The position numbers were made by a program, and so were the translations under genes. From NCBI GenBank assembly GCA_024516155.1, contig JAJJXM010000107.1, positions 1-64,000 on the forward strand: DNA of 64,000 nucleotides, written 5' to 3'. Positions 39,106 through 62,814 of this stretch are shown here, piece by piece. The stretch's first letter is position 1, and the number at the start of each line of letters is the position of its first letter. This DNA comes from Pyronema omphalodes. Lineage: Eukaryota > Ascomycota > Pezizomycetes > Pezizales > Pyronemataceae. The notes under the pieces are model-generated. The model did not search any database. It was not told the DNA's origin and was given only the letters and a program-made list of their open reading frames with translations.

Positions 39106-39113
39106 CTGCTACG
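39106..39113. repeat. Left 8-bp TSD of the giant transposon
   Basis: CTGCTACG directly precedes the terminal sequence CACCTAACGGGTGG. An identical CTGCTACG follows the mirrored terminus at 62807-62814. Confidence 0.9.
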
Positions 39114-39945
39114 CACCTAACGGGTGGAACTCCACCATCAACTTAGTTAGGAGGCGGCGCACGCCGCCTCCAACTAATTTGATGGTGGCCCGCAGGGCAG
39201 CCGCCCGGCTTCAAAAAATGTTTTACTCACACATGAACTTTCAAGAATAAAAAAAATTGTTCCATCGCTTTTGCGATGAATAAAAAGCTGTTAAATATAC
39301 TTATTCGCGTGACAATGTTTTGAAAAAAAAAAAAAAAAAATTGGTGACTGGAAACAGCACCAATGTCGTAAGCGAGCGGTGCTGCTCCACTGGGGCGTCG
39401 CCACGCTCCAAATCTTTTGGATCAAAAACAACATCTTTTAAAAATAAAAAAAATTATTCCATCGCTTTTGCGATGAATAAAAAGCTGTTAAATATACTTA
39501 TTCGCGTGACAATGTTTTGAAAAAAAAAAAAAAAAATTGGTGACTGGAAACAGCACCAATGTCGTAAGCGAGCGGTGCTGCTCCGCTGGGGCGTCGCCCC
39601 GCTCCAAATCTTTTGGATCAAAAACAACATCTTTTAAAAATAAAAAAAATGATTCCATCGCTTTTGCGATGAATAAAAAGCTGTTAAATATACTTATTCG
39701 CGTGACAATGTTTTGAAAAAAAAAAAAAAAATTGGTGACTGGAAACAGCACCAATGTCGTAAGCGAGCGGTGCTGCTCCGCTGGGGCGTCGCCCCGCTCC
39801 AAATCTTCTGGATCAAAAACAACATCTTTTAAAAATAAAAAAAATTATTCCATCGCTTTGGCGATGAATTAAAAGCTGTTAAATATACTTATTCGCGTGA
39901 CCATGTTTTGAAAAAAAAAAATTAAAAAAAAAATGTTAACCAGTG
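39114..39945 (+). repeat. Left TIR with about 196-bp subterminal tandem repeats
   Basis: The outer about 125 bp contains the terminus and an internal hairpin (the CACCATCAACTTAGTTAG side pairs with CTAATTTGATGGTGG around a GGCGGCG/CGCCGCC stem). Then about three and a half units of roughly 196 bp follow, each with TCCATCGCTTTTGCGATGAA, a poly-A/T run, GGTGACTGGAAACAGCACCA and a GCTCC-rich stretch (units start near 39261, 39458, 39654 and 39849). Such subterminal repeats are typical transposase binding regions. The ORFs seen here are repeat shadows. Confidence 0.87.
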
Positions 39946-40113
39946 TTGTAAGGGATGGTGCGCTGCTGGAAGGTTACCCGGCTTTACAAATTACGCGTAA
40001 CGAACTACACGTCCTAGCAACAACCACCACCTCACCCCATCTCCTTGCAACAAACACCAACTGACCCACACCGCTACACCAATCTCAACGTTTCGTATCC
40101 TACTGGCATTCAA

Positions 40114-42832
40114 ATGCCTGTCCTGAAGATTAGTCGCAAAGGACGCAGCCTGCAGCACGTCAGTGCAGGTCTCCGCGGTGGAGCGTTCACCCGCACTCTG
40201 CCCTACACTGCAGCCCGGCGGTGGGAAGAGTCACTGAAGACGAGACCGAATCGCTTGATCCCGCCACCTGGATACCATCGCAGTCAAAATGATGGTCCCA
40301 TTGAACCACCCACGCTCGAAAGCGATATCGAAAATCCATACCACCTCGATCCACACGACATCGAACAACATGCGCAGCACAACATGTTTGGGCGCTACCG
40401 TCGGGCCAAGGCGGCTGAACAACAAGCGACTGCGGCAAACTGGATCAAGGCTGAGCAGAGGATGATCGCATTTCGGACATCTGCACAGCGACCTGAGCTA
40501 TGCGACTGTCCGACTGAGGATATCAATGCCCGTTTCATCTCCTTGGAGTCATATGAGATACGCATGGTTCCTCTGTGCATTTGTGGACAACGATCTTCAT
40601 CATTTGTTCAGGACGGATTCTTCCCATCAACCCCAGTCAAACCTCGGACATTCTTTTCGATCAGACTCTTACGCCTTTTGCATGAGCAAGGGATTAGAGG
40701 GGGCCCTTCAAAGTATGCATGGGCTGCTGGACTTCGAGCGGTACATGAGATGTATATGGCCAAGACGTTACCGGACTTCTACGACTTGTTACTGGACGCA
40801 TATCATCACTTTGTTGCTGTTGAGAATGTGGTGGAAGCTTATACTAGCATGTATTTACAGACATGTGAAAGGGCAATCACTGGGGACGACCATTCATGGG
40901 AAGATGAAAACGTTGCAAATTCCTGTCCAGCATGCTTCGACTTCAGTCATCACCCAGCGGACAGATCTGTGGGAATCACCATTGATGGCAACTTTCAGCA
41001 TATTCGCTTTAAAGACAGAGGGGGAACCAATCATGAATACTTGGAACCCAGGAAATTCGTTTCTTATAGGATCCGGGACTTTTCTTCTGAGCATACGCCA
41101 GCAGCCAACAACAACACCGCCGGATGCGACAACAGGTTTCATGCAACAGGTGGATGGGGCAAGACTCTTAACACTTCTAGCAAGAAGCACCTGGATGAAT
41201 CTGGACTTATGGGAATGACCTGTTTTCATGGTATACCACTTCGATACCTCAATATTCATGGAACAGGTGAAAGGCAAAGTCACGGTGTTGAGCTGGTTAA
41301 GGATATACTCCAGCAGGATCCAGCTATGAAAGTCAGATTGTGCTATGATGTATCCTGTGTATTTGTCCCAGCATTGGAAAGGCTTTTGCCAGAAGATGCA
41401 AGGAGGGTACAGGGTGCAATTGGCAGGTTTCACATATACGCCCACAAATATGCCTGTCATGTTCTATGGAGTACTCTACGGTTGAAGGGGTTTGGATTAA
41501 TGGTTGGAGAAGAGATTGAACAGCATTGGTACATGCTATCTCATCTAATTGCATCCGGACGAGTTACCAGTGGACCAAGGAAGATGCAGAAAATTGACTC
41601 CTGCAGCTTGTCTATTGCCAGGAGGGCACTGGAGACCTTTGGAAAGAACCTAGAGAGATGCTGGAAGAAGGCAAAGCAAATGGAACTTGAAGAGTCAGCC
41701 AAATTACAGCTTATTCTGCGTCGAACAGTCCCAGAAAGGAGAGACAAAGGAGGACAGCTTCATCCTAGACAATCAGTCACTGTGGAGTATCTTGATGAGC
41801 AAGCCTCTGACCAGATTGAGTACTTTACCAGGTTCACGTGAGTACATTCCCATTTTTATCTTTATATATCTGTTCTCATGTTTTCCTCTTGTCATTAGCT
41901 AATGAAAGTATAGTGAAGCCCAAACTGAACCTGGAGATCTAATCTATGCTGCACTGGCTAAAGAGAATAGGCTGGCCGAACTACTGGCTAATCCTGGAAT
42001 GGGTGGAGGAAGAGGTTCAGATGGTAGAGGCCGTGGGGGTAGAGGCAGAGGGGGTAGAGGCCCACAGGCCCATGCAGTTGGTCTTCCTGTGCGGCCACCA
42101 CTCACATTAGCCGAATTGAGAACTTACAGGCATGGGGCAGAAGCAATTAGAGCAACTGACAATCTCTTTAACCAGCATGGAGAGCGTCGAGATGACCCTG
42201 CCTGGCAGTCTCCTGATGGGGAAAAGTTCAGAAAATTCCAACAAAGGGCAGCAGTGTCAGCATTGCATAAACTGCAGACCCAGTTAATTCATCATCTGAC
42301 TGAAAGGTCAGCCGAGCTTGAGCTCCTTCACCGCAGAATTGGACAAGAAGCAGCAAAAACATTTCTCAATGGGATCAGGCAGCGGAGCAAGGCCTTGGAC
42401 AACCTGGTTCAAGAATACAATCAGGTTGCAAGGGGTGCTGGAGTTAGGACATTGGATGCAGAACGTTTGAGAGATGAAGGGCTGGACAATGAGGAAATCT
42501 GGGATGTGGATTTGTTTATGGCTCGAGGTGACTGGGCAGTATACGACTTTGTTCGTGCGGGTATTGAGGCTCGAGCTCGCCTTGAAAGAGTTGAAGAAGA
42601 GAGAACTCAGCTCCGTTTGCATGCAAAACGAATTGTTCATTGGGCACATCGTCGTTTGGCTATCCTCCTACAGGTGTTAGATGACCCGGAAGCAGAACAC
42701 CTCGACAAGTTGAAGACAATCATAATTCACGATTACCGTGTTATTAAGTGTCTTCTGAAAGTCGATGCTCCTCTTTTTGAGCCGGAGGAAAGAGCCATGT
42801 TGCTTACCTCGCAGAGACGGATTATTCTTAGG
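40114..42832 (+). pseudogene. KDZ-type transposase gene, two exons, cut by gypsy G2
   Basis: The start ATG at 40114 (MPVLKISRKGRSLQ) precedes a 574-codon exon 1 (to 41837). A 76-nt intron (41838-41913, GTGAGT...TATAG, with GCTAATG as probable branch site) is followed by an in-frame exon 2. Motifs, by residue from the ATG, are a cysteine cluster CDC/CIC at about 131-157 (CxC-like), CPACFDF at about 271, IDGNFQHIRF at about 290, HGIPLRYLNI at about 371, YDVSC at about 410, FHIYAHKYACH at about 439 and GEEIEQHW at about 465. The D, D and E of the blocks are the expected RNase H-fold catalytic residues. Exon 2 has a Gly/Arg-rich stretch (42000-42065) and a long helical part. The G2 LTR ends the frame at 42832. 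Confidence 0.86.
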
Positions 42833-44189
42833 CACACCCTATATTGTGTGAGTATAGAATAGGTAACATGTATAACATTTAGAGAACATGGCAAACTCGA
42901 CAGGAGAATGAATAATAAGGTTAGTATTCTCGGGCCGGAACCCCCTGAGGAGCTCCAGCTAGCCACGTCACGTGATTCGTGACTTTCCGAAAGGACCTCA
43001 CGAGGATCCCGGCCCGAGGCGTCGCTACCTGTTATTCACTGTCAGTTTGGGAGGATCACAGATGGATGGGAACGAGGAACAACTTACCTCATGGGTGTCG
43101 ACTTACCCATGAGAAAACTACAGACGACGCTGATGGAGACAGAAGACGACGGCGAAAGGACACCTCCTTATACTTGAGGTCGTGTTCCACCAAGCACGGC
43201 TACCAGAGGGCTTGCAAGAGAAGGGAATTCTCAGGACAATGCAAGGCAGACGAATAGGATCATCCGAGGTCTGAGTTGGGCGGATAGTCGGCCAAGGAAC
43301 AAGGCAGAGTCTAGTCAGCCAACAGGAGTGGAGCTCAGAACAAGGGTCGAGATTGCGTGAGCATGAGACGACGTTCTGCAGCAAGGAACACCACTCAGGG
43401 AAACTGTTGGATGGAACTGATATGACGCGACCTTAGGCCAATGACTACCAACTGCAAGATAAGACGGCGTTTGCGTACACACCAGGGTGTGGCTGCGCGC
43501 AAGTGTGCGCAGGTGGGGCAGTTATGACATCACACAGGAATGTGACGGGGCAGTGCGCTCCGGTAAGGCATAGTCTGCCTTATGATGTCAGATTCCTCCA
43601 CTCGCAATCGAGATTCTCTAGGGAGATCTATGATCAAGACGACTCATAAGATATATGACTCACATGTCATTATCAGAGGAGTCATCGCATTATGCGCTCA
43701 AGTGGAGTAACCCTTCACTGGGCGTTTAACCCCAATACCTGATTGGAAGGTGTGGTAGCACGGCGAGGAATGTCAAGGATTAATCTGACACGAGGGTCAT
43801 CATGCAAGTGAGCAATTAATGTAATTGCGCATGCAGCATGATGCGAGCCATCAGCAGATTTGTCAAAGAATTGACTCACGTCTTATCTCCTAAGCTTAGT
43901 TTGGAAGTTGGTTCCCTTGGGAAGTCTGGGCGAACTTGTAGACGAAAGTCTATAAAAGACCCTAAGTCTTCCCACCGTCTCCTCCAGCATCAGCAACTTG
44001 ATCTCTTGTTACGACGTTACCATTCTACACCAAATACCTCAGGACGAGACCCTTAAGTTTATTCGGCCTGTGATCGATTAGTTGAACTTCCTAGCTCTTG
44101 GGAAATCTATTAGTTATCTATCTTGCGAACGAAGCGTTAACTGATCGGACAAACCTCTGTATTGAAAGCCTCAATACCCAGGTTCACAC
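42833..44189 (+). repeat. G2 5' LTR
   Basis: It starts CACACCCTATATTGTGTGAG and ends CCCAGGTTCACAC. The 3' LTR has TGT immediately before the same start, so the true start may be TGTCACACC with the first bases lost here. A TATA-like TCTATAAAAGACC (about 43949) could be the promoter, with the transcript start soon after. Small ORFs within it are duplicated in the 3' LTR and are not genes. The leader to gag, 44190-44314, holds no gene. Confidence 0.88.
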
Positions 44190-44314
44190 TATAAACTTAA
44201 GGCTCAAGCTACTAAGTTTACTTTTCGACACGTATACGGAAGACCCTCTTCTAGGGCAAGACGACACCAAAGATCCTCCTACAAAAAACTACAAAGAAAA
44301 ACATTCAACCAACA

Positions 44315-46504
44315 ATGGCCGCTCGAAGAATCACCGGCACTGCTCGTCACGACGATGGACTTGATGCTCCAATGGGCGATACCGTCAGCATCACCCGCCC
44401 TCGCTCTTGGGAGGAAGTTACTGCGGTTGGAGCTCCTAGAGTTCACCATGGAACTACCCTCCATCTGGGAGAAGTCCCTGACTGGGTCATTCTAATGATG
44501 GAAAGAATGAACGCCAATGAGGAGGACATCAAGAGGTTGGTTGAGGCAGTCGGGTCTGGGGCTGCCATGAATGATGAGTTACAGCGGGTAAAAGGGCTTT
44601 ACCAAGAGATGGCCCAGGGAATGCAAAAAGCGTACGACACCTTGGCAAAGAAAGGTGACCTGGACCAAGAAGTAAACCTTCAAACCGTCACTCGACTCGT
44701 CCAGGCTAGCAATGATTTTGCGGGCCAAGTTTGGAGGACCATTGGCAATCTTGCCACGGATGCACAAACAAAGGAGGCAGCTCAGCGGGCAGCTGCAGAC
44801 AGACTTAACCAGGGCATTGAAACGACAAATGCCATCCTTGAGGCCTTTGCCCAGAGGCAACTCGAAATCAATAAAGAAATTGAGGAATGGGCAATCGAGA
44901 AAAATACACAGGACGCCATCAGGAAGGAGGACGATAAGCAAAGGGATAGGCGCATCGCAGCTCTGTCTAGGGCTGAAGAGATGCATCAGCAGCGCCTACT
45001 GGACTATTATGAACAGAGGTAGGATGAAAAATTGGAATTGGTAAACAAGGTCATTGACCTTGTTATGTCGAAGATCCAGAAGAAGGAGCATTTCGATGCT
45101 AAGTCTCTAACCGAGGCTATGCATGAGGAGATGACTCCCAGACCACCCTCTCTTGGCAAAGCACCCGAGGTCCCATTGCCTCCATCAGTGGCGGGATCTG
45201 TTCAAAATGACGGCAGAAACGGAGGAAGGGGAAGCAAACCACCAGGAGGAGGACTTCCGCCACCACCACCACCACCATCTGATCCTACGGACAGCGAGGA
45301 TTCAGATGACTCATATATTAGAAAGGCTTTGGAAAGGAAGCGCCAGGAGCGCAAAGAAAAGGCTCAACAAAGAAAGCCTGAAGCAAAGAATGCCACGGAG
45401 GCATTCTTGGAATCACTTGTCACGAAATTGCAGCAATCGGGGGTTAACGAGCCGAGGAGACCTAAAATGCCAGAGATGAAGGCTCCTCAATATTTTTCCG
45501 GGAAGGACAAGAATTTGTTTAGGGCTTGGTGGATGTCTGTCCAAGATTACATTGCGACATACGCCAAGGCGTTTCCAGATGAGGACGACCAGGTAAAATG
45601 GGTTGGGAGCTTGCTTACTCACAAAGCTCTCAGTTGGCACCAGGAACGGCGAAAGTCCATTCAAAGATCAGGACTTAAGGATACATGGCAAGCTTTCTCA
45701 AGCTCTATTGAAACTAGGTTTGAGGATAAGCGAGAAGCACAAAAGGACGTTAAAAGGATTACGGAGCTCCAGTATGATGGAGATATTGACGACTATATAA
45801 CTAAATTGGAAGATCTGAATATGCGTGTGGGAGCAATTGGCCCCATGTATAGGAATGTAATTTGGGAGGCCATGACACCAGCCATTAAAAAAATGGTATA
45901 TCAAAGATTTGGGGGGATCCCAACTGATGATGAAGGAATGATTGATGCAGTTAAGGAAGCTGCTCATGTTGTGGAAAATTTGGAAGAGGAATTAAAGGGT
46001 CATAAGAAAAAGACTTTGGAAGTGCGGGAGGACCGCCATAGGGATAAAGGAAAGAACAAAGAAACTGTGCGCCCCAAGGAGGTGCAGCACAAGGACAAAT
46101 TTAAGGATAAAAAAGAGAAAAAGAGTTTCACTGGGAAAAAGGACAAGAAGTCAATTTTTGCGTCAGGGAGGGAAGCTCTGCAGAATGTTCCTCAGAGCGA
46201 AATTGATAAACATAAGAAGGAAAAGGCTGACTGTTGGAGATGCGGGCGATCAGGACATAAAATGTTTGATTGTTACGCTAAGAAGACAGTTGGAGGAACA
46301 GAGCTCTCTGGCGAAGGAAAGGTTGCTTCCTCTGGCAAGAGGAAGAGAGACGATGACGATGATGGAAACAAAGGGCAAGAGAAGCCCAAGGAAACAAAAA
46401 AGACAAAGACCGCAGCAGTGCGGCAGGATGAGGATGAAATAATGGAAGATGCTCAGCCCAGGATTTGGGAGATTGAGCAGAATGATGAGGAGTCGGATTT
46501 TTAA
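44315..46504 (+). pseudogene. G2 gag, one in-frame stop
   Basis: The ATG at 44315 (MAARRITGTARHDD) opens a frame of about 730 codons broken only by TAG at 45020-45022. The same frame continues on both sides. The N-terminal half is coiled-coil rich. The C-terminal half has a Pro-rich linker, a retrotrans_gag-like core (FRAWWMSVQDYIATYAKAFPD, FEDKREAQKDVKRITELQ), Lys-rich stretches and one knuckle, CWRCGRSGHKMFDC, followed by acidic residues. It would form the particle and package RNA. The TAG is one C-to-T change from CAG (Gln). The alternative, programmed readthrough, is less likely. Confidence 0.85.
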
Positions 46505-49500
46505 GATCCTCTAGGGTTGCGTCACCTGAGGAGGAGGAATGTATATCTGACGCAGAAAAAATAATTTGTTCAGGGACAAAAAGGAAAATATCGGACAGCT
46601 TGGAGTCGACCAAGACAAAACTTCGACGAACCGACAAAGGAACCTCTTCCAAAGGAACAAAAATGGAAGCTGTGGTTCCACCCCATCACGGAAAAAGGCC
46701 AATAATCAACATGGTGTTGAATTGGTCAAAAAACAAATTTCGAACGGTGCGAGTCCTACTTGATACAGGCTCCACCTCAGCTTTACTGGACAAAGGGTTT
46801 GTCCGAACTTACAAAATTCCTACTGTGAAGAGAGACCAGCCTCTTCAAATACGCAACTTCAATAATGAGGTAGTTGCTGGAGCTGGAGAATTCTTTACAG
46901 TTCCTTTTATGCTGCAACACAAACAACACTTTGCAGCCGAAGCCTTCGAAGTCGCACCTCTTGACAGCGACTGCGATGTCATCCTCCCTTATTGGTGGAT
47001 GGCCAAACATCAACCTTGCAACATGTGGGGAGACAGCAATAACATCTCCTTCACAACTACACGTTGCATCGAACATTGTACTAAGGCTCAGGCCAGTACA
47101 TTTTCACTCAAGGTCGACCGCCGCGTACTCGACCATCCCGAGGCCTCAGTAATAGGCCATATTTCAGCTGTTGCCACGAAGGAAGAATTATCAGAGGCAC
47201 TTCAACAAGTCCCTGAGAAATTCCGTAAGTGGATTAACATCATGACAAAGGAAGCAGCAGACAAGCTTCCTGAACACAAACCCTACGACCACGCCATAGA
47301 CCTGAAGGAAGGGGAAACTCCTCCTTGGGGACCAGTCTATGCGCTTAATGAAGTGGAGCTGGAAACATTGAGAGAATGGTTAAAGGAAATGCTAAGGACA
47401 GGAAAGATTAGACCATCAAAATCTCCTGCCGCAGCACCAATTCTCTTTGTGCCAAAACCCCATGGGCGAGGTTTAAGGCTTTGTGTCGATTACAGGGGGA
47501 TCAACAAAATAACAATAGCAAATCGCTACCCCCTCCCTCTTATGTCTGAATTACAAGACAGAGTAAGAGGAGCTAAGTTCTTCACGAAAATGGATTTGAA
47601 GAACGGTTACCATTTGATTAGAATCAAAGAAGGAGATGAGTGGAAAACTGCTTTTAGATGCAGGTATGGGCTATATGAATTTTTGGTAATGCCTTTTGGC
47701 TTAAGCAATGCACCGGCCACGTTCCAAGATATGATGAATCATATCTTTAGGGATATGTTGGATCAGGGAGTAATTGCTTATATTGATGATGTTCTTATTT
47801 ACGCGGAAACGGAGGAGGAACATGATAAATTGGTAAAGGAAGTCTTGAAGAGACTGGAAGAAAATGGGCTGGTAATATCTCCGGAAAAATGTGTTTGGGG
47901 GACAAACAAAGTGGAATTTTTGGGGTATATTATAAGCGAAAAAGGAATTGAAATGGCAAAGGATAAAGTGGAAACCGTCCTGGTTTGGAAACCTCCTAAA
48001 TCCTTGAAAGAGACACAAGGCTTTCTTGGATTTGCAAACTTCTATCGCCGATTCATAAAGGACTTTTCAAGAATTTGTCGTCCTCTTACTGAATCTACCA
48101 AGGGCGATCCAAAGAAGTGGGAATGGACTGTTGCCATGGAACTGGCATTTGATGAGTTGAAGCAGAGGTTTACGAAGGCACCAATATTGGGTCATTTTGA
48201 TCCTAAAAAGGTTTGCCTTGTTGAAACTGATGCTTCTGACTTTGCCTTAGGCGCAGTCCTTTCTCAGAAAGGAGAGGACGGAAAGCTGCATCCCATTGCT
48301 TTCCATTCTAGGAAATTCACTCCAGCTGAGATCAATTACGAAATCCATGATAAGGAGCTTTTAGCTATTGTCGATTCGTTTAAGATTTGGAGAAGATACC
48401 TGGAAGGAGCAATGCATACGGTTCAAGTATTCAGCGACCATCAAAATTTGGAGTACTTCACCACAACAAAAGTACTCAATCGTCGCCAAGCAAGGTGGGC
48501 TCAAGAACTTGCTGGTATTGACTTTAAAATTTTTTACAGACCTGGAAACAAGAATGGGAAGCCTGATGCTTTGTCAAGGCGTCCGGAGTTCCGCCCTGAA
48601 AAGGGGGGAGGTGAGGATCAGCCGATTACGACTATCCTTCACAAAGAACATTTTGCTTCTATTTCAGCAATAAGTAGTGGAGGTGAAGGAACATCATTCA
48701 TTGTTTCTTCGGCACGGCTCAATTCTATCCCTTCTGTTAAATGGTCTGAAGAATTTTTAAAGATGGTTAAAGAGGCTGGAGAACTGGACGAAAATTATCA
48801 AAAAGCAGCAAAACGAATAAAAGATCCACTAACGATAGAAGATGGCATAATCTATCGGAAAGAGAAGTTATGGGTACCAAAGGATTTGGTCAACATGGTC
48901 CTTGAATCAGAGCACGACTCCAAAATTGCTGGGCACTTTGGTCAGGACAAAACAATTGAATTAATAAGGAGAAACTTTTGGTGGCCGAAGATGGATGAAA
49001 AGATAATTGAATATATACAGAGCTGTTTGGAATGTCAGAAGGACAAGACGGCTAGGCACCTTAAGTATGGGATGTTGCAACCTTTGGAATTAACATATGC
49101 CCCATGGCAGTCTATTGCTATGGATTTCATCACCGACTTACCAGAATCAAATGGGTGTGATCAACTATGGGTTATAGTTGATCGATTTACAAAAATGGCA
49201 CACTTCATTCCTTTACACAAAGACGGCAAGACAACTGCAGACCTTGTCAGGATTTTCGCAAAGGAAATATGGAAACTACATGGCCTACCCAAGGATATTG
49301 TGTCGGACAGAGACTCCAGGTTCACAAGCACCACCTGGAAAGCATTTCTTGGAACCCTAGGAATTAAACCAAGAATGTCGACAGCCTTCCACCCACAAAC
49401 AGATGGACAAACGGAACGGCTTAATCAAACAATTGAAGCATACCTCCGCTCTTTTGTTAACCACGAAATGGACGACTGGGCTGATCTCGTACCTATGGCT

Positions 49501-50199
49501 GAGTTCGCATACAACAACTCAGTCACAAGCGCAACTGGACTATCACCCTTTTACGCCAACTACGGATTCTATCCAAATACGAGCAACCCTTCGGCAACTG
49601 CTGTGCGTAACCCAGCCAGCAAAGCCTACGCCCACTGGATGCATACGATTCATGAAGGAGCCAAATCAATGCTTCAAAAAACCCAAGAAAGAATGAAGCA
49701 ATATGCAGACCAGAAACGTCAGGAGGCACCAGAATACCAAGTAGGAGACTTGGTTATGTTAGATGGACGAAACATACGAACTAGACGCCCATCGAGAAAG
49801 TTAGACCATAAACTGCATGGTCCCTTCCAAGTCGAAAAAATCATCTCCCCAACAGCAGTTTGACTTACGCTCCCACGAAAATGGAAGATACACAACGTCT
49901 TCCATACTTCTTTACTTGAGCCCTTTAGAGCAGGAACTCGGGCTCCACCTGATACGAACAAAATTCTACGGGAAGCAGACGACGTTGAGGGAAGCGAGGA
50001 ATATGATATCGATGAAATAATGAGCAGCTACAAATCTGGAAATCGAATCTTATACCTCGTTAAATGGTTAGGTTGGCCTAATAAAAAAGACTGGACGGCA
50101 GAACCTTTCGACAACTTTTCAGTAGGAGGTCAGGAGAAGTTACGAGATTTTCATCTCAAGTATCCTGATTCTCCGAGGGACTACCGACTCAAGGATTAA
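46489..50199 (+). pseudogene. G2 pol (protease, reverse transcriptase, RNase H, integrase, chromodomain), one in-frame stop
   Basis: The pol frame is -1 relative to gag and overlaps its last 16 nt, so a -1 frameshift near GGATTTTTAAG is likely. Domains in order are protease (VLLDTGSTSALLD), reverse transcriptase (FFTKMDLKNGYHLIRI, MPFGLSNAPATFQDMM, YIDDVLIYA), RNase H (VETDASDFALGAVLSQ, FSDHQNLEYF), and integrase with the zinc block (CLECQKDKTARH) and core (MDFITDLPES, IVSDRDSRF, STAFHPQTDGQTERLNQTIE). After TGA at 49861-49863 the same frame continues through WKIHNVFHTSLLEPF to a chromodomain (EYDIDEIMSSYKSGN, YLVKWLGWPNKKDW) ending at 50199. The TGA is one C-to-T change from CGA (Arg). Confidence 0.88.
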
Positions 50200-50370
50200 G
50201 GCTTAATGTTTTTCCCCAAGAGGTTTTCATTAGGTCGAGTTGGTAGTAGGATGTAGGGGCTGGAGGACTACATCTATATATGATCACTAAGTCACTTGGC
50301 TGCGGCGAGGTGCGATCACAGAATGATAAGCTACTTGCTTCGGGACGAAGCTTGAACAGGGGGGAGGTGG
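50200..50370 (+). other. G2 3' untranslated leader and polypurine tract
   Basis: The 170 bp between the pol stop and the 3' LTR hold no gene. The last 15 bases (ACAGGGGGGAGGTGG) are a polypurine tract that primes plus-strand DNA synthesis in LTR retrotransposons. Confidence 0.75.
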
Positions 50371-50373
50371 TGT

Positions 50374-51730: not shown

Positions 51731-52023
51731 TGGATCCCGAGAACATTGCAGAGACTGTGGTCGAGCAAGATGAGGATGCCGACACAGTGGGATCCGACGA
51801 TGACGGCATCGATAGGGAGTTTGACGAAGATGAACTCGGTGAATTCATATCCGATCGCCTGCAAAATGTGGTCAACGAGGAGCTCGGGAATTTAGGAAGT
51901 CAGGGGAATGTTATAGGTGTTGAAGATGATGAAGGGTCAATTGACGACGATGATGTTGTTGAAAGGTTGGATCCTGACAACATTGAAGGGACTGTGGTGC
52001 GGCAAGATGATGATATTATATAG
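51731..52023 (+). pseudogene. Acidic ORF tail, possibly the C-terminus of the KDZ transposase
   Basis: The frame continues out of the G2 LTR and encodes about 97 residues rich in Asp and Glu (DEDADTVGSDDDGID, EFDEDELGEF), with two related repeats, LDPENIAETVVEQDED and LDPDNIEGTVVRQDDD, before TAG. It directly follows the 3' LTR on the same strand as the transposase and may be its displaced end. However, the frame does not join exon 2 cleanly under any simple target duplication I tried, so the link is inference. No known family is recognised. Confidence 0.5.
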
Positions 52024-52076
52024 TTGGTGGTTGTTGTAGCTGTGGAGGAGAGGGGGCAGGGGTAAATACAGAAGGG

Positions 52077-53320
52077 CGAAGAGGAGGAGACGAAGCGGCA
52101 AAGGGAGGTCGATAGTTGTAAATAGCTGAGTGTTGTGGAGGAATAGCGGCGGAGGGAGGTCGATAGTTGTAAATAGCAAAGCGGCGGAGGGAGGTCGATA
52201 GTTGTAAATAGCTGAGTGTTGTGGAGGAATAGCGGCGGCGGGAGGTCGATAGTTGTAAATAGCAAAGCGGCGGAGGGAGGTCGATAGTTGTAAATAGCAA
52301 AGCGGCGGAGGGAGGTGGAAAGTTGTAAATAGCTGAGTGTTGTGGAGGAATAGCGGCGGCGGGAGGTCGATAGTTGTAAATAGCAAGGCGGCGGAGGGAG
52401 GTCGATAGTTGTGAATAGCTGAGTGTTGTGGAGGAATAGCAAAGCGGCGGAGGGAGGTCGATAGTTGTGAATAGCTGAGTGTTGTGGAGGAATAGCAAAG
52501 CGGCGGTTGTGAATAGCTGAGTGTTGTGGAGGGAGGTCGAAAGTTGTGAATAGCTGAGTGTTGTGGAGGAATAGCAGCGGCGGAGGGAGGTAGATGATTG
52601 TGAATAGCTGAGTGTTGTGGAGGAATAGCAAAGCGGCGGAGGGAGGTCGATGATTGTGAATAGCTGAGTGTTGTGGAGGAATAGCAAAGCGGCGGTTGTG
52701 AATAGCTGAGTGTTGTGGAGGGAGGTCGAAAGTTGTGAATAGCTGAGTGTTGTGGAGGAATCGCAAAGCGGCGGAGGGAGGTCGATGATTGTGAATAGCT
52801 GAGTGTTGTGGAGGAATAGCAAAGCGGCGGTTGTGAATAGCTGAGTGTTGTGGAGGGAGGTCGAAAGTTGTGAATAGCTGAGTGTTGTGGAGGAATAGCA
52901 AAGCGGCGGAGGGAGGTCGATTATGTGAATAGCTGAGTGTTGTGGAGGAATAGCAAAGCGGCGGAGGGAGGTTGATTATGTGAATAGCTGAGTGTTGTGG
53001 AGGAATAGCAAAGCGGCGGTTGTGAATAGCTGAGTGTTGTGGAGGGAGGTCGAAAGTTGTGAATAGCTGAGTGTTGTGGAGGAATAGCAAAGCGGCGGAG
53101 GGAGGTCGATGATTGTGAATAGCTGAGTGTTGTGGAGGAATAGCAAAGCGGCGGTTGTGAATAGCTGAGTGTTGTGGAGGGAGGTCGAAAGTTGTGAATA
53201 GCTGAGTGTTGTGGAGGGAGGTTGATGATTGTGAATAGCTGAGTGTTATGGAGGAATAGCAAAGCGGCGGAGGGAGGTCGATGATTGCGAATAGCTGAGT
53301 ATTGTGAAGGAACAGCTGTC
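52077..53320 (+). repeat. Left minisatellite arm
   Basis: Tandem units combine a few modules: GAATAGCTGAGTGTTGTGGA, GGAATAGCAAAGCGGCGG, AGGGAGGTCGATGATTGT, and variants with AGTTGTAAATAGC on the outer side. Module order varies, so unit length ranges from about 30 to about 130 bp. Long stop-free frames on the minus strand result from the repeat and are not genes. Confidence 0.88.
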
Positions 53321-53339
53321 GGGGGGGGGGGGGGGGGGG

Positions 53340-54000
53340 TTGGTGTAATTATTAGGCGCGGGAAATAAAAAAAAAGATTACAAATTAAAAGAACAAGGCA
53401 GCTCGAGATTTCCTGCTGTGTTTAAGCGCCCCGCGGGGTTCTTCAGATTGATGATACAATCCCGCGAGGCGTTTAACCATACGACGTTGCGCGCCAGCAA
53501 AACAGGATTAAAAATCTTGAGCTACGTAACGCTGTGTGTTTAAACGCCTCGCGGGATTATTCACATTTTTAATCCTGTTTTGCTGGGTGTGTTTAAACGC
53601 CTCACGGGATTATTCAGATTGATGATACAATCCCGCCAGGCGTTTAAACATACGACGTTGCGCGCCAGCAAAACAGGATTAGAAATCTTGAGCTACGTAA
53701 CGCTGTGTGTTTAAACGCCTCGCGGGATTATTCAGATTTTTAATCCTGTTTTGCTGGGTGTGTTTAAACGCCTCGCGGGATTATTCAGATTGATGATACA
53801 ATCCCGCGAGGCGTTTAAACATACGACGTTGCGCGCCAGCAAAACAGGATTAAAAATCTGAATAATCCCGCGAGGCGCTTAAACACAGCAGGAAATTTGG
53901 TGATACCTAGCGTTGTGAGTTTAAACGCCTCGCGGGATTATTCAAATTGTTAATCCTGTTTTGCTGGTGCGCAACGTCGTATGTTTGAACGTTCATTTAG
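53340..54000 (+). repeat. Left array of hairpin-forming repeats
   Basis: After an AT-rich bridge (about 53341-53395), units built on TTTAAACGCCTCGCGGGATT and its reverse complement alternate with GCAAAACAGGATTAAAAATC and CATACGACGTTGCGCGCCAG. Each unit can fold into a hairpin, and the array mirrors 55731-56440. Confidence 0.85.
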
Positions 54001-55730
54001 CTAAGTGCGCGTGTCTGCGGGGCGCGCATTGCGGCAACCGATCAGGCTGCTGCGCGCCAGTCAGCACTACAGCCCCTTGGTGGATCACATGCGCTGCGCA
54101 CTACGGCCGTTGCCAAGGTAGCAGTTGCCAAGGCGTTGGCTGCCAAGATGCCTGTTCCTGAAACGGTCGTTGCCAAGACGGCCATTGCCAAAGCGGCTGT
54201 TGCCGAGGTGACCTTTCCCAAACTGGCTGTTGCCAAGGCGGATGTCTCCAAAGTGGCTGTTGCCCAGGCGGCCCCAACCAAATCGGCTGTTGCCAAGGCG
54301 GCCCCAACCCAATCGGCTGTTCCCAAGGCGGCCCAGAACCAAATCGGCTGTTGCCAAGGCCTTCATTGCCGAGGCTATGCTGTTCCCCCGTCGCACAACC
54401 ACCGGCCCAATCGGCCAAAAGCATCTTGGCTGAGCGGGGTACAAAATGGAAATTTTCCACCGCCCCACCGTCTTTTCCTTCTTTCCCACATCACCATCGT
54501 GAAGTACGTAGTTTTTCCTGTAATTTCAATTTTTTTCTGTGCCGTTCGTTCCCCTCTCCTTTCCATTCCCTTGTTTCACCCATTCCGGTCCTTCCAACCC
54601 CCCCCCCCCCACCCCCCACTCCGGCGGCCCCAATTCCTACCCACGTGTCCCATCCGACTCTTCGTCCGCCCTCCAACGCGCTCATCGCTGTGACATAAAT
54701 CGTAACCTTAAATATCAACCCTGCTTGTGAAACAAAATTTCGCGTAGTCTTTGCTTTTTGAAACTCGGTCACACAACCGTGTGAATACGCGTCTCCTGAG
54801 CATTATCTTCCCGTATCTACATTCTCCTTGGTGAGCCAAGGGGGCGGGTTGCAGAATAATAATTTCGTGCGCGAAGTTTTTGTGCTGCATTTTCTTGCAA
54901 TTAGCGATTTTTGCGTATTGTGGCAATTGATCACCGCATACTGCGCGTCGCCATGTGCTCTAGTATTCAGATGAATATTGTCACGTACGCGAAGTTTGTT
55001 CAAAAAAGCATCAATAACATCATGCACGTAAACACAGCGACTTGTCAAATCACAGGGACCCTCAACCGCGGGAAAATCGGTGTGAAATTAAGAATATTTG
55101 GAACAATGTTGACTTGTTTTTGAATTTGTTTTGTTTTTGAATTTAAAATGCTACGTGTATCATGTACAAGGCACTCTGCGCAGAGCCAAATTTGTTAATG
55201 ATCACAGCATGAGTTGAAATTCATTTAATCTATAGAAACAAATTCATATTCAAATCGACATTGCAATGCCTCCCTCCTGTCGCGTCCACCCGACGATATT
55301 CAGCGCGCTGCGTGAAGAACGCGTCTTGTTACATCAGAACGCGTCTTGTAACATCACGTGATTGATTCAGCGCGCTGCGTGAAGAACGCGTCTTGTGACA
55401 TCAGAACGCGTCTTGTAAAGTCACGTGATTGATACGGCTCCCAGCGCGGTCCCGAACCCAGTGACGCCGAGCCCGAGTCACATCGCGCCACCTGCATCGC
55501 GCAGCAACCGCTCCGTGCCGACTCGGGTTTTGTCCCGACTAATCACGTGCGCTGGGTGCCATGGCTCGGCAGCTCCTCCGTGCCGACTGGGGGTCGCTTC
55601 CGACCAGTCACGTGCGCTAGGTGCCGGGGCTCGGCAGCTCCTCCGTGCCGACCCGGGTTCAGTCCCGATCAATCACGTGCGCATGCGCAAAGTGCTGCGC
55701 GTGAAACCTGCTGCAGCGCCCGCATTGCGG
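54001..55730. other. Core of the foldback region, no recognised gene
   Basis: Three kinds of sequence are visible. At 54100-54400 are imperfect tandem repeats of about 30 bp with GTTGCCAAGGCGG (a frame reading Ala/Val/Lys repeats, probably not a protein). At 54440-55290 the sequence is non-repetitive with small ORFs that match nothing I know. At 55300-55435 is a direct duplication of GCGCTGCGTGAAGAACGCGT, and at 55510-55690 are three units of about 65 bp with CCGTGCCGAC and CACGTGCG. I find no transposase. Confidence 0.6.
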
Positions 55731-56440
55731 CAACCGAAATTAATCTTGTTTTGCTGGGTGTGTTTAAACGCCTCGCGGGATTGTATCAACAATCTGAATA
55801 ATCCCGCGAGGCGTTTAAACACACCCAGCAAAACAGGATTAAAAATCTTAATAATCCCGCGAGGCGTTTAAACACACAACGTTACGTAGCTCAAAATTTC
55901 CTGCTGTGTTTAAGCGGCTCGCGGGATTATTCAGATTTTTAATCCTGTTTTGCTGGCGCGCAACGTCGTATGTTTAAACGCCTCGCGGGATTGTATCATC
56001 AATCTGAATAATCCCGCGAGGCGTTTAAACACACCCAGCAAAACAGGATTAAAAATCTGAATAATCCCGCGAGGCGTTTAAGCACGCAGCGTTACGTAGC
56101 TCAAGATTTTTAATCCTGTTTTGCTGGCGCGCAACGTCGTATGTTTAAACGCCTCGCGGGATTGTATCATCAATCTGAATAATCCCGCGAGGCGTTTAAA
56201 CACACCCAGCAAAACAGGATTAAAAATCTGAATAATCCCGCGAGGCGTTTAAGCACGCAGCGTTACGTAGCTCAAGATTTTTCATCCTGTTTTGCTGGCG
56301 CGCAACGTCGTATGTTTAAACGCCTCGCGGGATTGTCTCATCAATCTGAAGAACCCCGCGAGGCGCTTAAACACAGCAGAAAATCTCGAGCTGCCTTGTT
56401 CTTTTAATTTGTAATCTTTTTTTTATTTCCCGCGCCTAAT
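55731..56440 (-). repeat. Right array of hairpin-forming repeats
   Basis: The array mirrors the left one: CGCCTCGCGGGATTGTATCA, AATCCCGCGAGGCGTTTAAAC, GCAAAACAGGATTAAAAATC and GCGCGCAACGTCGTATG recur in about seven units. The right end passes through the bridge TCTCGAGCTGCCTTGTTCTT into the C21 tract. Confidence 0.85.
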
Positions 56441-56472
56441 TATTACACCAACCCCCCCCCCCCCCCCCCCCC

Positions 56473-58322
56473 GCAGCTATTCCTTCACAATACTCAGCTA
56501 TTCACAATCATCGACCTCCCTCCGCCGCTTTGCTATTCCTCCACAACACTCAGCTATTCACAATCATCGACCTCCCTCCACAACACTCAGCTATTCACAA
56601 CCGCCGCTTTGCTATTCCTCCACAACACTCAGCTATTCCCCATCATCGACCTCCCTCCGCCGCTGCTATTCCTCCACAACACTCAGCTATTCACAACTTT
56701 CGACCTCCCTCCACAACACTCAGCTATTCACAACCGCCGCTTTGCTATTCCTCCACAACACTCAGCTATTCACAATCATCGACCTTCCTCCGCCGCTTTG
56801 CTATTCCTCCACAACACTCAGCTATTCACAATCATCGACCTCCCTCCGCCGCTGCTATTCCTCCACAACACTCAGCTATTCACAACTTTCGACCTCCCTC
56901 CACAACACTCAGCTATTCACAACCGCCGCTTTGCTATTCCTCCACAACACTCAGCTATTCACAATCATCGACCTCCCTCCGCCGCTTTGCTATTCCTCCA
57001 CAACACTGAGCTATTCACAACTTTCGACCTCCCTTCACAACACTCAGCTATTCACAACCGCCGCTTTGCTATTCCTCCACAACACTCAGCTATTCACAAC
57101 CGCCGCTTTGCTATTCCTCCACAACACTCAGCTATTCACAATCATCGACCTCCCTCCGCCGCTTTGCTATTCCTCCACAACACTCAGCTATTCACAATCA
57201 TCGACCTCCCTCCGCCGCTTTGCTATTCCTCCACAACACTCAGCTATTCACAATCATCGACCTCCCTCCGCCGCTGCTATTCCTCCACAACACTCAGCTA
57301 TTCACAACTTTCGACCTCCCTCCACAACACTCAGCCATTCACAACCGCCGCTTTGCTATTCCTCCACAACACTCAGCTATTCACAATCATCGACCTCCCT
57401 CCGCCGCTTTGCGATTCCTCCACAACACTCAGCTATTCACAACTTTCGACCTCCCTCCACAACACTCAGCTATTCACAACCGCCGCTTTGCTATTCCTCC
57501 ACAACACTCAGCTATTCACAATCATCGACCTCCCTCCGCCGCTTTGCTATTCCTCCACAACACTCAGCTATTCACAATCATCGACCTCCCTCCGCCGCTG
57601 CTATTCCTCCACAACACTCAGCTATTCACAACTTTCGACCTCCCTCCACAACCCTCAGCTATTCACAACCGCCGCTTTGCTATTCCTCCACAACACTCAG
57701 CTATTCACAATCATCGACCTCCCGCCGCCGCTATTCCTCCACAACACTCAGCTATCTACAACTATCGACCTCCCTCCGCCGCTATTCCTCGACAATACTC
57801 AGCTATTTACAACTATCGACCTCCCTCCACTGCCTTGCTATTTACAACTATCGACCTCCCTCCGCTGCCTTGCTATTTACAACTATCGACCTCCCGCCGC
57901 CGCTATTCCTCCACAACACCCAGCTATTTACAACTTTCGACCTCCCTCCGCCGCTTTGCTATTTACAACTATCGACCTCCCTCCGCCGCCTTGCTATTTA
58001 CAACTATCGACCTCCCGCCGCCGCTATTCCTCCACAACACTCAGCTATTTACAACTATCGACCTCCCTCCGCCGCTTTGCTATCCCTCCACAACACTCAG
58101 CTATTCACAACTATCGACCTCCCGCCGCCGCTTTGCTATTTACAACTATCGACCTCCCTCCTCTGCTATTCCTCCACAACACTCAGCTACTTACAACTAT
58201 CGACCTCCCTCCGCCGCCTTGCTATTTACAACTATCGACCCCCCCGCCGCCGCTATTCCTCCACAATACTCAGCTATCTACAACTATCGACCTCCCTTCG
58301 CCGCTTCGTTTCCTCCTCCTCG
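56473..58322 (-). repeat. Right minisatellite arm
   Basis: It is the reverse complement of the left arm's modules (CCACAACACTCAGCTATTCA, GCTATTCCTCCACAACAC, CAATCATCGACCTCCCTCC, CTTTGCTATTTACAACTATC), longer than the left arm by about 600 bp. Stop-free frames of up to 576 codons in three frames are by-products of the repeat. Confidence 0.88.
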
Positions 58323-58881
58323 CCCATCGGAAATTCTAATTGCTCTTTGTATACATTCTATTCAAGAATCTATACTTTACAGCTCATTTCGACCAACTTT
58401 TTATTCAACAATTTAATCAACATTTCCCACCCCTCCACTCCTCAACTCCATTCAGTTGCTATGGGTGTCTAACTGCCTTCAGTGTACCACGTCGAAATCC
58501 ATCAACTACCTCCCGTAGCTCGGACTTATGGGTACTGATCAGTTTTGCCTCGATGTCCTCCTCCTCCCCGTGTATCCACGTTGAGGGTATCTCCCAATGC
58601 AATTTCCGCAGTTTCATAGCTAGGTTGAGCCCACCAGGCTTTCGAGGAATAGCCGTGAGTTCAGGAATTTTCATCCTAGTGGTTCCATCTGCCACCCATT
58701 AGATTACTACTAATATCAGTCAGAAATATTGAAGAACATACTGATTGCTTTGAGAATCAGTAAGGCAGCTTCCGATCTTAACCCATCCTTCACGCGGCCC
58801 TCTTTAGCAGCTACCTTTAATACCTCAATTGCCTTCTCAGCAATCTTGCCACCCTTGCACATCATCTCAAACTCCCCTGCA

Positions 58882-60886
58882 AAAAAGACCCACACCACAC
58901 GGCAACGGCGACCCCCCCTCTGCATTCTCAACAACGAGCACCAAAACCCCCGGTTTTCTCATCGGATTCGGATTCGCAGCACTCTGTTACGTTATTCTCT
59001 GAATTTTCAGGGAATTCTACGTTGTTTTTGTTGACTTTTGTCGCAAAATCAGAGTTTTCACGAGTTTTGGCTTACCCCACCTCACGAAATGTCGCCAAAA
59101 CAACGACAGAACAACGCCCGACGATCGAAACGGTCCGAAAACGCGTACAATGTTCTAGCCGACCTTCCTCATGATGGATCTACTCCTACTCTGGATGGAA
59201 GAGATGGAAAAGTTGATGAAGTTGATGGAAACTTCGCTGGAAAGCCCTTCCAGAGGGTGGTCTTGGCACAATCACCAGTTCCTTCGGCTTCAACATCGCA
59301 GCAACAGGCGACAACTGAACACAGCCGGTTTAGTGACTACCGTCGCATGATGGTATCTGCATTTAATAAGGCAGTCGCAGTTGACGACAACTATGCCACC
59401 CTAGATCAACTGTTCATAGACAACTACGCCGAACTCACTGGAGCCAACTTCCTGGGGATACAACAGATCCACCGGGATACACAGCGACGCTTCAATACCC
59501 TCGATGACACCATACGCAACAACAGCGATGAGATGCGCCACAGATTCGACGTCATGATGACGAAATTCAACGTTCTGCTCGGCGAAAACACGAAGCTGCG
59601 CGCAGCATACGACTCTACACAGGCCGAAACAGCAGCTCTCAAGGCTGCTGTGGACGCCCTGACGAAGAAAATCGACGAACAGCAACAAGTCATTTCGGCT
59701 CCCCCCTCACCGAACCTCACGGCCTCTTCCTCAGCGATGGAAGAGATGACTATGCAGCTCTCCGTCGTCCAACATGACATTCAGGATGTCCTGGACGCTG
59801 TTCGCAACCCTCCTGGCAAGAGAAAGCGAAGGGGAAGCGACCAGAACACCGAACCCACCTCACCGACAAACAGACGACCGGTGAACCACAAACCGAGAGC
59901 GGCATCACCGGTGCAAAGCCTGATGCACTCAAAACATGCGACTACCGCCGCCCAGGACAAGCTTGATGCCCTCAAGCCTATGTCCCCCCAACCTCTCCTC
60001 GCGATCACGTCAACCGATGCGACACCGGAACCTCACCCTGACAGTCCATCTGCTCAGGACACACCTCTACCCGACGCCCCAAGCACTGCCCCTGCTGAGA
60101 CGAACGGATGGAAGACTGTGGGGGCGAAGGCTACACAGAGGAAGAAGCAGAAAGCGAAGGAGACGACACCTACGGCAGCGCCACCCAGCAAGACCCCTAC
60201 AACAAAGAATGGTGGACGGGGAAAGAATACCCACCAACCCAGAACGACAACCTCCTCTGCAAAGAAGACTTGGGCAGAAGTCGTCAAGAGCGGAGGCATC
60301 AACGTCCTGATTGTGCTTGGGAATGGCAATCTTGGACTGACAACACCACCGACAAGAAGGGGAGAGAGGCGAGGGGGAGCAGCTAGGAGGCTGAGGAAGA
60401 CGGAAGGAGAAGGGGAGAGAGGGGAGGAGAAGAGGGGCAGGGCGGGCCCGGGTGTCTCAAAGGGCAAAGAGTCAGGAGACACCGGCGGAGGAGGGGAGAG
60501 AGGAGAGGAGAGTGGGGGCACGGGTGGCCCGGCGGCTGTTTAACTTTGCTTTGGTTTTGTTTTTGCTTTGTGGAGGAAATAAAGGAGGAAAAATGGTTAA
60601 AAATGGGAGGGGAAGGGAGGAGGAAAGGGAGGAGCCCGGCGAGGCGGCCTCTGTGCAAGCAGGGCACTGGGAACATCAGACGCGCTTGGACAAGAAACCC
60701 CCGTAGTAACAGTGGGGACAGACCCCACAACCACAACGATCAAGAGGAGGAGACTGGTAGAGGTGGAGACTGGGTTTTTGCTTTTACATTTCTTTCTTCT
60801 TCTCTTTTGTATTTATCTGTCCCTTGTCATAACCTTCGGGTTGCAAACAAGTAATGAGAGAACAAACAAACAAACAAACAAACAAA
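58882..60886 (+). mobile_element. Family D element D5, full length
   Basis: A 10-bp TSD (CTCCCCTGCA at 58872-58881 and 60887-60896) flanks an element of about 2.0 kb. It starts with AAAAAGACCC, the terminal motif ACACCACACGGCAACGGCGA and a C run, and ends with AGAGAACAAAC and a (CAAA)n tail. It has one intact ORF and a family B type 3' UTR with the AACCTTCGGGTT hairpin (60831-60842). It interrupts exon 2 of the HMG-box-like gene. Confidence 0.9.
59089..60543 (+). CDS. Family D single ORF, intact, coiled-coil protein
   Basis: The frame of 484 codons starts at ATG 59089 (MSPKQRQNNARRS). The open frame upstream has no ATG. Approximate order is a conserved N-terminus with NVLADLPHDG; residues about 70-160 helical with QQIHRDTQRRFNTLDD; about 165-200 a coiled coil (ENTKLRAAYDSTQAETAALK); about 210-250 a second helix (MQLSVVQHDIQDVLDAV); a basic patch KRKRRG at about 255 that could be a nuclear signal; then Pro/Ser/Thr-rich sequence, KTWAEVVKSG and a Gly/Arg/Glu-rich tail. 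There is no zinc knuckle, endonuclease or reverse transcriptase. It resembles LINE ORF1 proteins in layout only. A role in binding its own RNA is inference. Confidence 0.8.
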   Translation: MSPKQRQNNARRSKRSENAYNVLADLPHDGSTPTLDGRDGKVDEVDGNFAGKPFQRVVLAQSPVPSASTSQQQATTEHSRFSDYRRMMVSAFNKAVAVDDNYATLDQLFIDNYAELTGANFLGIQQIHRDTQRRFNTLDDTIRNNSDEMRHRFDVMMTKFNVLLGENTKLRAAYDSTQAETAALKAAVDALTKKIDEQQQVISAPPSPNLTASSSAMEEMTMQLSVVQHDIQDVLDAVRNPPGKRKRRGSDQNTEPTSPTNRRPVNHKPRAASPVQSLMHSKHATTAAQDKLDALKPMSPQPLLAITSTDATPEPHPDSPSAQDTPLPDAPSTAPAETNGWKTVGAKATQRKKQKAKETTPTAAPPSKTPTTKNGGRGKNTHQPRTTTSSAKKTWAEVVKSGGINVLIVLGNGNLGLTTPPTRRGERRGGAARRLRKTEGEGERGEEKRGRAGPGVSKGKESGDTGGGGERGEESGGTGGPAAV

Positions 60887-61769
60887 CTCCCCTGCACTCC
60901 CTCCTTGCTTGCACATCAATGCATAATATTCATATCCCTTTCCCATTGATGTGAATAAAACTGGACCAAGATTCTCAGAGGGTACTGCCCTGCAGATTGT
61001 ATGGATTTGCTGACGCTCAAGCAGGACTAGCTGAGGATTTAACCATCAGTATAAACAGTGATATATAATTAGATACTCCGGAATATAACTTACCTGCTTT
61101 TTGAGATTCTTCAGACTTTGTTTCTGTATTTCCTTGTGTGACTTCAGACGCACCTCTGACTCCTCATGAATATCAGTATGCCCTGAATCCAGTTCGCTAT
61201 CATCAACAGAAGTAGCTCCAGTAGATCCCTTTGCCAACCTTTCATACTTTTGACGCAGCTCTGGTTCTGTATCCCATCGCTGCTTCATGTATTGTTGGTA
61301 GTCACCCTTGAGACCTGGACGGCTCTTATTGTATGCCACACCTGCATTCTGTTGGAGTAGCTCCTCTGGAGCATTATCTTTTTCATGATGTAGAAAGAGG
61401 TTCCAGGCATTGGGCTTTCTGGTCTGAAGCCGAGGCAACTCACCAGGAATATAGAAGCCAGCAGCCAACAGAAGCTGATCAGCGCTATATTCACCACATC
61501 TCTTAGAGATCCGCTGTGCTTGTGCTAGTATGATGTCCATGAGCTCTCTGACATACATATTGTCTGCCTCTGGCATACCCTGCTGATTGACTGGATGTTG
61601 CATTGCAGTGATGTTCATGATGTTGAAGATGCTGCTGATATGGGGATCAATGGTGACACAGGAGTTGTTGGGTGACACAAGACTTGGTTGATCAGACTCC
61701 ACAGATTTCTCGTTGGACGTCTGATTGCTTGGCGCCAGCAACGCCCCAGCAGAGCACAACCACTCGCTT

Positions 61770-62806
61770 ACAACATTGGTGCTGTTTCCAGTCACCAATT
61801 TTTTTTTTTTTTTTTTTTAAAACATGGTCACGCGAATAAGTATATTTAAATGCTTTTAATTCATCGCAAAAGCGATGGAACAATTTTTTTTATTTTTAAA
61901 AGATGTTGTTTTTGATCCAAAAGATTTGGAGCGGGGCGACGCCCCAGCGGAGCAGCACCACTCGCTTACGACATTGGTGCTGTTTCCAGTCACCAATTTT
62001 TTTTTTTTTTTTTCAAAACATGGTCACGCGAATAAGTATATTTAACAGCTTTTAATTCGTCGCAAAAGCGATAGAATAATTTTTTTTATTTTTAAAAGAT
62101 GTCGTTTTTGATCCAGAAGATTTGGAGCGGGGCGACGCCCCAGCGGAGCAGCACCGCTCGCTTACGACATCGGTGCTGTTTCCAGTCACCAATTTTTTTT
62201 TTTTTTTTTTCAAAACATTGTCACGCGAATAAGTATATTTAACAGCTTTTAATTCATCGCAAAAGCGATGGAATAATTTTTTTTATTTTTAAAAGATGTT
62301 GTTTTTGATCCAGAAGATTTGGAGCGGGGCGACGCCCCAGCGGAGCAGCACCGCTCGCTTACGACATTGGTGCTGTTTCCAGTCACCAATTTTTTTTTTT
62401 TTTTTTTTTCAAAACATTGTCACGCGAATAAGTATATTTAACAGCTTTTTATTCATCGCAAAAGCGATGGAATAATTTTTTCTCATATTTAAAAGATGTT
62501 GTTTTTGATCCAAAAGATTTGGAGCGGGGCGACGCCCCAGCGGAGCAGCACCGCTCGCTTACGACATTGGTGCTGTTTCCAGTCACCAATTTTTTTTTTT
62601 TTTTTTTCAAAACATTGTCACGCGAATAAGTATATTTAACAGCTTTTTATTCATCGCAAAAGCGATGGAACAATTTTTTTTATTCTTGAAATCTCATGTT
62701 TGAGTAAAAAATGTTTTGAAGCCGGGCGGCTGCCCTGCGGGCCACCATCAAATTAGTTGGAGGCGGCGTGTAACTAAGTTGATGGTGGAGTTCCACCCGT
62801 TAGGTG
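61770..62806 (-). repeat. Right TIR with about 196-bp subterminal tandem repeats
   Basis: It mirrors the left end: about five units (GCGATGGAA near 61871, 62069, 62266, 62463 and 62661), each with TGGTGCTGTTTCCAGTCACC, a T run and AAGTATATTTAACAGC, then the outer unique part with the GCCGGGCGGCTGCCCTGCGG hairpin and the terminus GAGTTCCACCCGTTAGGTG at 62806. The innermost unit overlaps the 5' side of the HMG-box-like gene, so the repeat may include its promoter. Confidence 0.87.
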
Positions 62807-62814
62807 CTGCTACG
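62807..62814. repeat. Right 8-bp TSD of the giant transposon
   Basis: CTGCTACG follows the right terminus and is identical to 39106-39113. Confidence 0.9.

Follow-up and report, generated by a model that had tools for sequence, protein, structure and literature searches.

A KDZ transposon of Pyronema omphalodes found at a fixed distance from telomere-type repeats

Introduction

In a stretch of 64,000 nucleotides from Pyronema omphalodes, referred to as the window throughout, 23,693 bp with mirrored ends lie between two identical octamers, and the locus raises the question of what kind of element this is, how large it is in its native state and how it came to this site. An initial annotation made from the sequence regarded it as a giant KDZ-type transposon and thought that its combination of features looked undescribed. 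For KDZ elements, 8-bp duplications and long TIRs have been reported before, in the accessible parts of two studies (PMC12730594, PMC12810828). The most unusual feature of the element, which that annotation did not include, is a telomere-type repeat located 24 nt from its right end.

Results

The ends of the element in the window and their immediate surroundings are organized as follows.

39106..39113, no strand: left target duplication CTGCTACG, within a LINE-like open frame, at its end
39114..39218, + strand: left TIR, about 105 bp, a hairpin for the most part (hairpin z -8.1)
39238..39921, + strand: left subterminal array, 3.5 copies of a 196-bp unit
61741..62691, - strand: right subterminal array, 4.8 copies of a 196-197-bp unit, inverted
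62714..62806, - strand: right TIR, with 12 bp deleted in the hairpin, matching the left TIR over about 93 bp
62807..62814, no strand: right target duplication CTGCTACG
62831..62845, + strand: telomere-type repeat GGGATAGGGTTAGGG, 24 nt past the end of the element, a distance made up of the 8-bp duplication and a further 16 nt

The termini, CACCTAACGGGTGG... and its mirror, directly adjoin both copies of CTGCTACG, exactly as the initial annotation had stated, and the arrays of about 196-bp units that it had seen at both ends do run in opposite orientation. In the copy at C179 (C-numbers denote contigs of the 60.8-Mb genome holding the window) the TIRs are identical over 105 bp. Few changes were found among ten variants of the TIR hairpin that were aligned with compensatory changes in mind, and when an RNA gene was sought between 39000 and 63000, a single match below the gathering score was obtained.

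A search of the genome with the terminus gave 27 rows. In the loci examined, 23 element tips retain the outer 20 bp, of which 18 belong to nine two-ended copies and five are single (one-ended copies C172a, C178, C151, C152 and C200), and in the remnants C46 and C165 the tip is lost or altered. A perfect 8-bp duplication flanks eight of the nine two-ended copies, and in the ninth (C213) 7 of 8 bases agree. The perfect duplications are GAGAAGTG at C208, ATCACGTT at C179, GAGCTGTG at C24, GCTTTGCA at C124, AACTGATC at C186, CTGCTACG at both C172b/c and C10, and AGCAGGGG at C183/C177, a copy on two contigs that were joined by inference. Empty sites were also encountered. For the LINE site with a single CTGCTACG followed by the repeat, all 40 scored rows (of 247 candidates) were uninterrupted with a 231-base query covering the telomere-type repeat, and the site with a single CTGCTACG is present in the genome as 52 exact 30-mers, which stop short of this repeat. 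The C208-type empty site was uninterrupted in 36 of 40 rows, and for the C186-type site, a weaker case, the best foreign match is uninterrupted at 83%.

Some of the target repeats appear at regular intervals. The LINE-like target (37511-39113 and 62815-63200 in the window) ends in a telomere-type repeat and its copies lie 6.5-6.9 kb apart at several places, for example at C203:60306 and 67127; this spacing, together with the terminal repeat, suggests head-to-tail arrays. The C208-type target repeat occurs on C206, C213 and C209 in steps of about 6.5 kb (e.g., C213:113537, 120050 and 126563).

Two genes are located within the element.

40114..41837, + strand: transposase exon 1, containing the CxC1 zinc cluster and the KDZ domain; relatives were compared to set its start and splice site
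41914..42832, + strand: transposase exon 2, first part, interrupted by a retrotransposon
51732..52023, + strand: transposase exon 2, tail and stop
61046..61618, - strand: gene 2, encoding about 190 aa with a possibly HMG-box-like domain, start set by relatives

The KDZ-type transposase proposed in the initial annotation was supported by Pfam matches above the cut-offs for both the KDZ domain PF18758 (97.5 bits, cut-off 26.6, E 1.2e-27) and CxC1 PF18802 (33.2 bits, cut-off 26.9). Residues D326, D435 and E489 as well as further acidic positions are invariant in 19 aligned relatives, and we take them to be the conserved acidic residues of the KDZ catalytic core, with a putative catalytic role. 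A structure model of the transposase had a mean pLDDT of 52.6, which is too low to reveal the fold. PF18758 matched nine rows in the genome and, since every one of them coincides with a match of the window transposase, we see a single KDZ family there. Strong C-to-T decay was not evident among six copies of transposase exon 1. Because its transposase gene is interrupted, the copy in the window would probably be mobile only with help from another copy. The product of gene 2 is possibly HMG-box-like; no HMG family was among the Pfam matches up to E 10 when nine members were scanned, and its profile gave three matches to solved structures (E 0.28-1.1), none of them an HMG box. Altogether, the assignment to KDZ transposons with an 8-bp duplication stands: further copies and empty sites exist, the transposase falls within KDZ and the duplication has this length.

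As a native size, the 23.7 kb that the initial annotation had called giant did not hold. Three copies that possess both genes and both ends (E208, E179 and E186, located at C208, C179 and C186) measure 13,827, 13,563 and 12,412 bp, respectively, and the excess in the window consists of two nested retroelements, without which this copy amounts to about 12.8 kb.

42833..51731, + strand: nested Ty3/gypsy LTR retrotransposon, 8.9 kb, a later insertion foreign to the KDZ element, LTRs 99.6% identical
58882..60886, + strand: nested LINE-like fragment, 2.0 kb, with (AAAC)n tail, foreign to the KDZ element

The LTRs of the Ty3/gypsy element (42833-44190 and 50374-51731) differ at 6 of 1,358 sites. No clear target duplication was found at its flanks, and its left junction apparently lacks the first LTR bases. 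The LINE-like fragment is enclosed by a 10-bp duplication CTCCCCTGCA (58872-58881 and 60887-60896). An identical 16-bp tandem unit occurs within this fragment (60743-60773) and at 31548-31578, which suggests that a second copy of the fragment lies near 31.5 kb of the window. A still larger distance was observed on C172 (442409-546801), where a pair of ends with matching duplications is 104 kb apart. Within this interval, the transposase is present in collinear pieces (442.9-443.4, 458.7-459.6, 460.7 and 484.6-485.0 kb) and gene 2 is split in two (536.5 and 545.8 kb), and because these pieces are scattered in order, the C172 pair is apparently the same element riddled with nested insertions. 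On the evidence of the sequence, the native element is about 13 kb and grew to 23.7 kb in the window by nested retroelements. A native giant element carrying cargo in the manner of Starships, for which the length in the window and the C172 ends with their matching duplications might speak, deserves hardly any credence given the 12.4-13.8 kb of the three gene-bearing copies, the retroelement nature of the excess in the window and an order of gene pieces on C172 such as nested insertions would give.

Between the genes lies a palindrome, which the initial annotation had noted and which is real; in the copy of the window, its arms match at 88% identity along 1.9 kb.

52093..53998, no strand: left palindrome arm, short tandem repeats followed by 171-bp units with hairpins
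53999..55740, + strand: core, in an orientation relative to the transposase opposite to that of four other copies
55741..58304, no strand: right palindrome arm

The best inverted self-matches in four copies show 84-91% identity, and the 171-bp arm units form hairpins (z -10.4 for one and -3.5 for another). As a gene, the core gave just a sub-threshold low-complexity match. Its direction relative to the transposase is opposite in the window to that in each of the four comparable copies (E208, E179, E186 and E183); a 2.27-kb block of 97.5% identity is inverted between the window and E208, with which E179 and E186 are collinear. Recombination between the arms, which at their 84-91% identity could flip the core, is the likely cause, and the apparent inversion may also reflect a mis-assembly.

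Three short, non-autonomous derivatives possess both ends and the core and neither gene (C24:504613-507190, C124:370617-373724 and C213:74765-85213). The C24 (2.6 kb) and C124 (3.1 kb) derivatives have their internal junctions in common and C213 shares one of them; the C213 copy is enlarged by a 7.7-kb insertion which by eye is LTR/Ty3-like. Their duplications differ, so that a transposase made elsewhere appears to have mobilized these short forms. A single deletion event may lie behind all of them, and they are therefore no proof of a need for the core. Exact GGGTTAGGG motifs were counted 11 times inside the C213 copy versus none in nine other copies or pieces.

In order to describe the target, the flanks of all copies were compared. 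A telomere-type dimer GGGTTAGGGTT (≤2 mismatches) was present on exactly one flank of all nine two-ended copies, 24 ± 1 nt beyond the end of the element, the layout outward from the element being the duplication, about 16 nt and then GGGTTAGGG or a close variant. The best GGGTTAGGGTT match has an offset of 24 in nine of the flanks (C179, C24, C186, C213, C172a, C172b, C177, C151 and C10), of 25 for C208 and of 23 for C124; C172b is degraded. Among the one-ended copies, C172a and C151 display the telobox and the visible sides of C178, C152 and C200 do not, and it was not found at the remnants C46 and C165. When up to 2 mismatches were allowed, offsets 23-25 contained the motif in 11 of their 69 position tests, compared to 8 of 10,281 elsewhere (binomial 1e-22, or 5e-15 with each of the seven contexts counted once), probabilities which are descriptive as the motif was picked from these same flanks. 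When the genome was searched for the pattern with the spacing left free between 9 and 39 nt, seven places were recovered, with spacings of 24 (five), 25 (one, C208) and 30 (one, C10, in which GGGATA starts at 24); the reversed pattern gave no match in the same search.

In each of the 11 flanks the G-rich strand reads outward, and no reverse-strand motif was seen at the offset in the flanks examined. Element orientation, judged from gene order where visible, is variable, the transposase end facing the repeat in five copies (C208, C179, C172a, C172b and C151) and the gene-2 end in three (C186, C177 and C10). The target analysis comprises seven distinct contexts in one genome, and across these the mean information per position is 1.21 bits for the motif, 0.21 for the spacer and 0.19 for the duplication. 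Genes for a haem peroxidase and a Tle1-like hydrolase are near the C24 site, and a C2H2 zinc finger gene is near C124. Exact matches to the 11-mer number 1,270 genome-wide versus 760 for the reversed control, and therefore most such sites are unoccupied.

Discussion

We consider it very likely that this locus holds a two-gene cut-and-paste KDZ transposon of about 13 kb. Sequence comparison shows its insertion at a fixed offset from a telomere-type repeat on one side, and a protein bound to that repeat would dock the insertion complex. In the mechanism that we propose, the transposase would pair the two ends via the subterminal repeats, perhaps with the gene 2 product bending the DNA, and the target would be cut with an 8-bp stagger in a cut-and-paste reaction as in other KDZ elements. 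Such a rigid offset favours a repeat-bound protein that touches the integration complex and would dock it rigidly, fixing the distance at which the cut occurs; TnsD plays this part for Tn7.

Concerning the origin of the putative docking protein, we lean towards one encoded by the element, either gene 2 or a domain of the transposase, to which we would assign about an even chance; a host telobox protein is somewhat less favoured and still a serious candidate. By analogy with Tn7, we tentatively suggest that an element-encoded putative binder of the two-unit repeat puts the insertion 24 nt 5' of the repeat, with numerous scattered LINE-like tails and intergenic teloboxes as low-cost sites. It is about as conceivable that a host protein of the Myb/telobox type flags the site and docks a KDZ transposase that has no other specificity, which would suit a target that is a host regulatory and telomere motif and would agree with Pfam scans in which neither gene 2 nor the transposase matched a known telobox-binding domain. 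Tethering by chromatin proteins usually scatters insertions over a range of positions, and an offset fixed to within 1 nt speaks against the host protein.

The repeats might also merely reflect the host repeats in which copies reside, with LINE-like ends carrying them and copies spreading by repeat duplication and not by site choice. The 11 telobox flanks fall into seven contexts, and seven of these flanks are indeed in repeats (three in one LINE-like element and two in each of two others), with C151 and C172b/c occupying the same site in the same orientation. However, the remaining four single sites (C179, C24, C124 and C183/C177) are mutually dissimilar, have a duplication each of their own and display the same offset, and C10 is oriented opposite to C172b/c in the same LINE site, which makes this explanation very improbable. 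For the four single-copy sites, it is refuted by the absence of similarity to the other contexts. That the telomere-type repeat was added after insertion, for instance by the healing of breaks, at which such tracts can form in other organisms according to the accessible text of one report (PMC8537989), is barely credible, as the repeat is already contained in the empty repeat-borne sites (the C186 type, at 83%, being the weaker instance).

Docking by a repeat-bound protein finds its closest model in Tn7. TnsD binds the end of glmS and Tn7 inserts about 25 bp away, with no sequence required at the insertion point, as stated in the accessible part of that account (PMC2918618); both systems thus share a fixed offset from a recognized sequence and need no sequence in between. 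In contrast, Tn7 is an unrelated bacterial system with one insertion orientation, whereas both orientations (five and three copies) occur here. Dada transposons are likewise target-specific eukaryotic DNA transposons, but target small RNA genes and belong to another transposase superfamily, as far as the portion available describes (PMC3706591). MoTeR and FoTeR are fungal mobile elements tied to telomere repeats, though in the passages available they are retrotransposons at telomere repeats (PMC12810828, PMC12857005) and the Pyronema element is a DNA transposon 24 nt from an internal repeat.

Among KDZ elements, KDZ1, KDZ2 and KDZ3 of Cryptococcus neoformans also combine a KDZ and CxC1 transposase; they are about 9-11 kb long with TIRs of 139-241 bp and duplications of 8 bp (KDZ1) or 4-8 bp (the others), and the accessible text mentions no telomere-type target, second gene, 196-bp arrays or palindromic core (PMC12810828). 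Active elements of this group inserted into a reporter gene, in the same portion of that work (PMC12810828), and therefore telobox targeting is not known to be general in KDZ. Fungal Zisupton and Dileera share the KDZ transposase, TIRs and 8-bp duplications, but the families characterized in the part available carry a TET/JBP gene (PMC12730594), none of which was seen in the Pyronema element. Kyakuja-1_LB and -2_LB of the KDZ group have CA..TG ends as well, and differ by 7-bp duplications and a lack of TIRs in the available description (PMC12730594) from the 8 bp and 105-bp TIRs found here. KDZ families are also listed without telomere-type targeting in the accessible parts of PMC8290104 and PMC7473861, and the part available of PMC12730594 likewise contains no mention of it. 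No report of KDZ insertion at a distance from telomere-type repeats was found in the open-licence literature, as judged from listings, and landing at a fixed distance beside telomere-like repeats looks like a new targeting mode for such an element.

At telobox sites, the element might find quiet chromatin. When telomere repeats were inserted in Neurospora, they induced H3K27 methylation, some with 8 units and a high level with 17, and short internal repeats of N. crassa were not preferentially located in H3K27-methylated regions, according to the part of the study available (PMC5752202). As the targets here hold only about two units and because of that distribution of short repeats, this link is speculative. 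Few eukaryotic DNA transposons choose their targets strictly. With the offset from an 11-bp motif fixed and the spacer free, the way in which such a transposase finds its target becomes directly accessible to tests that require two proteins and one short oligonucleotide.
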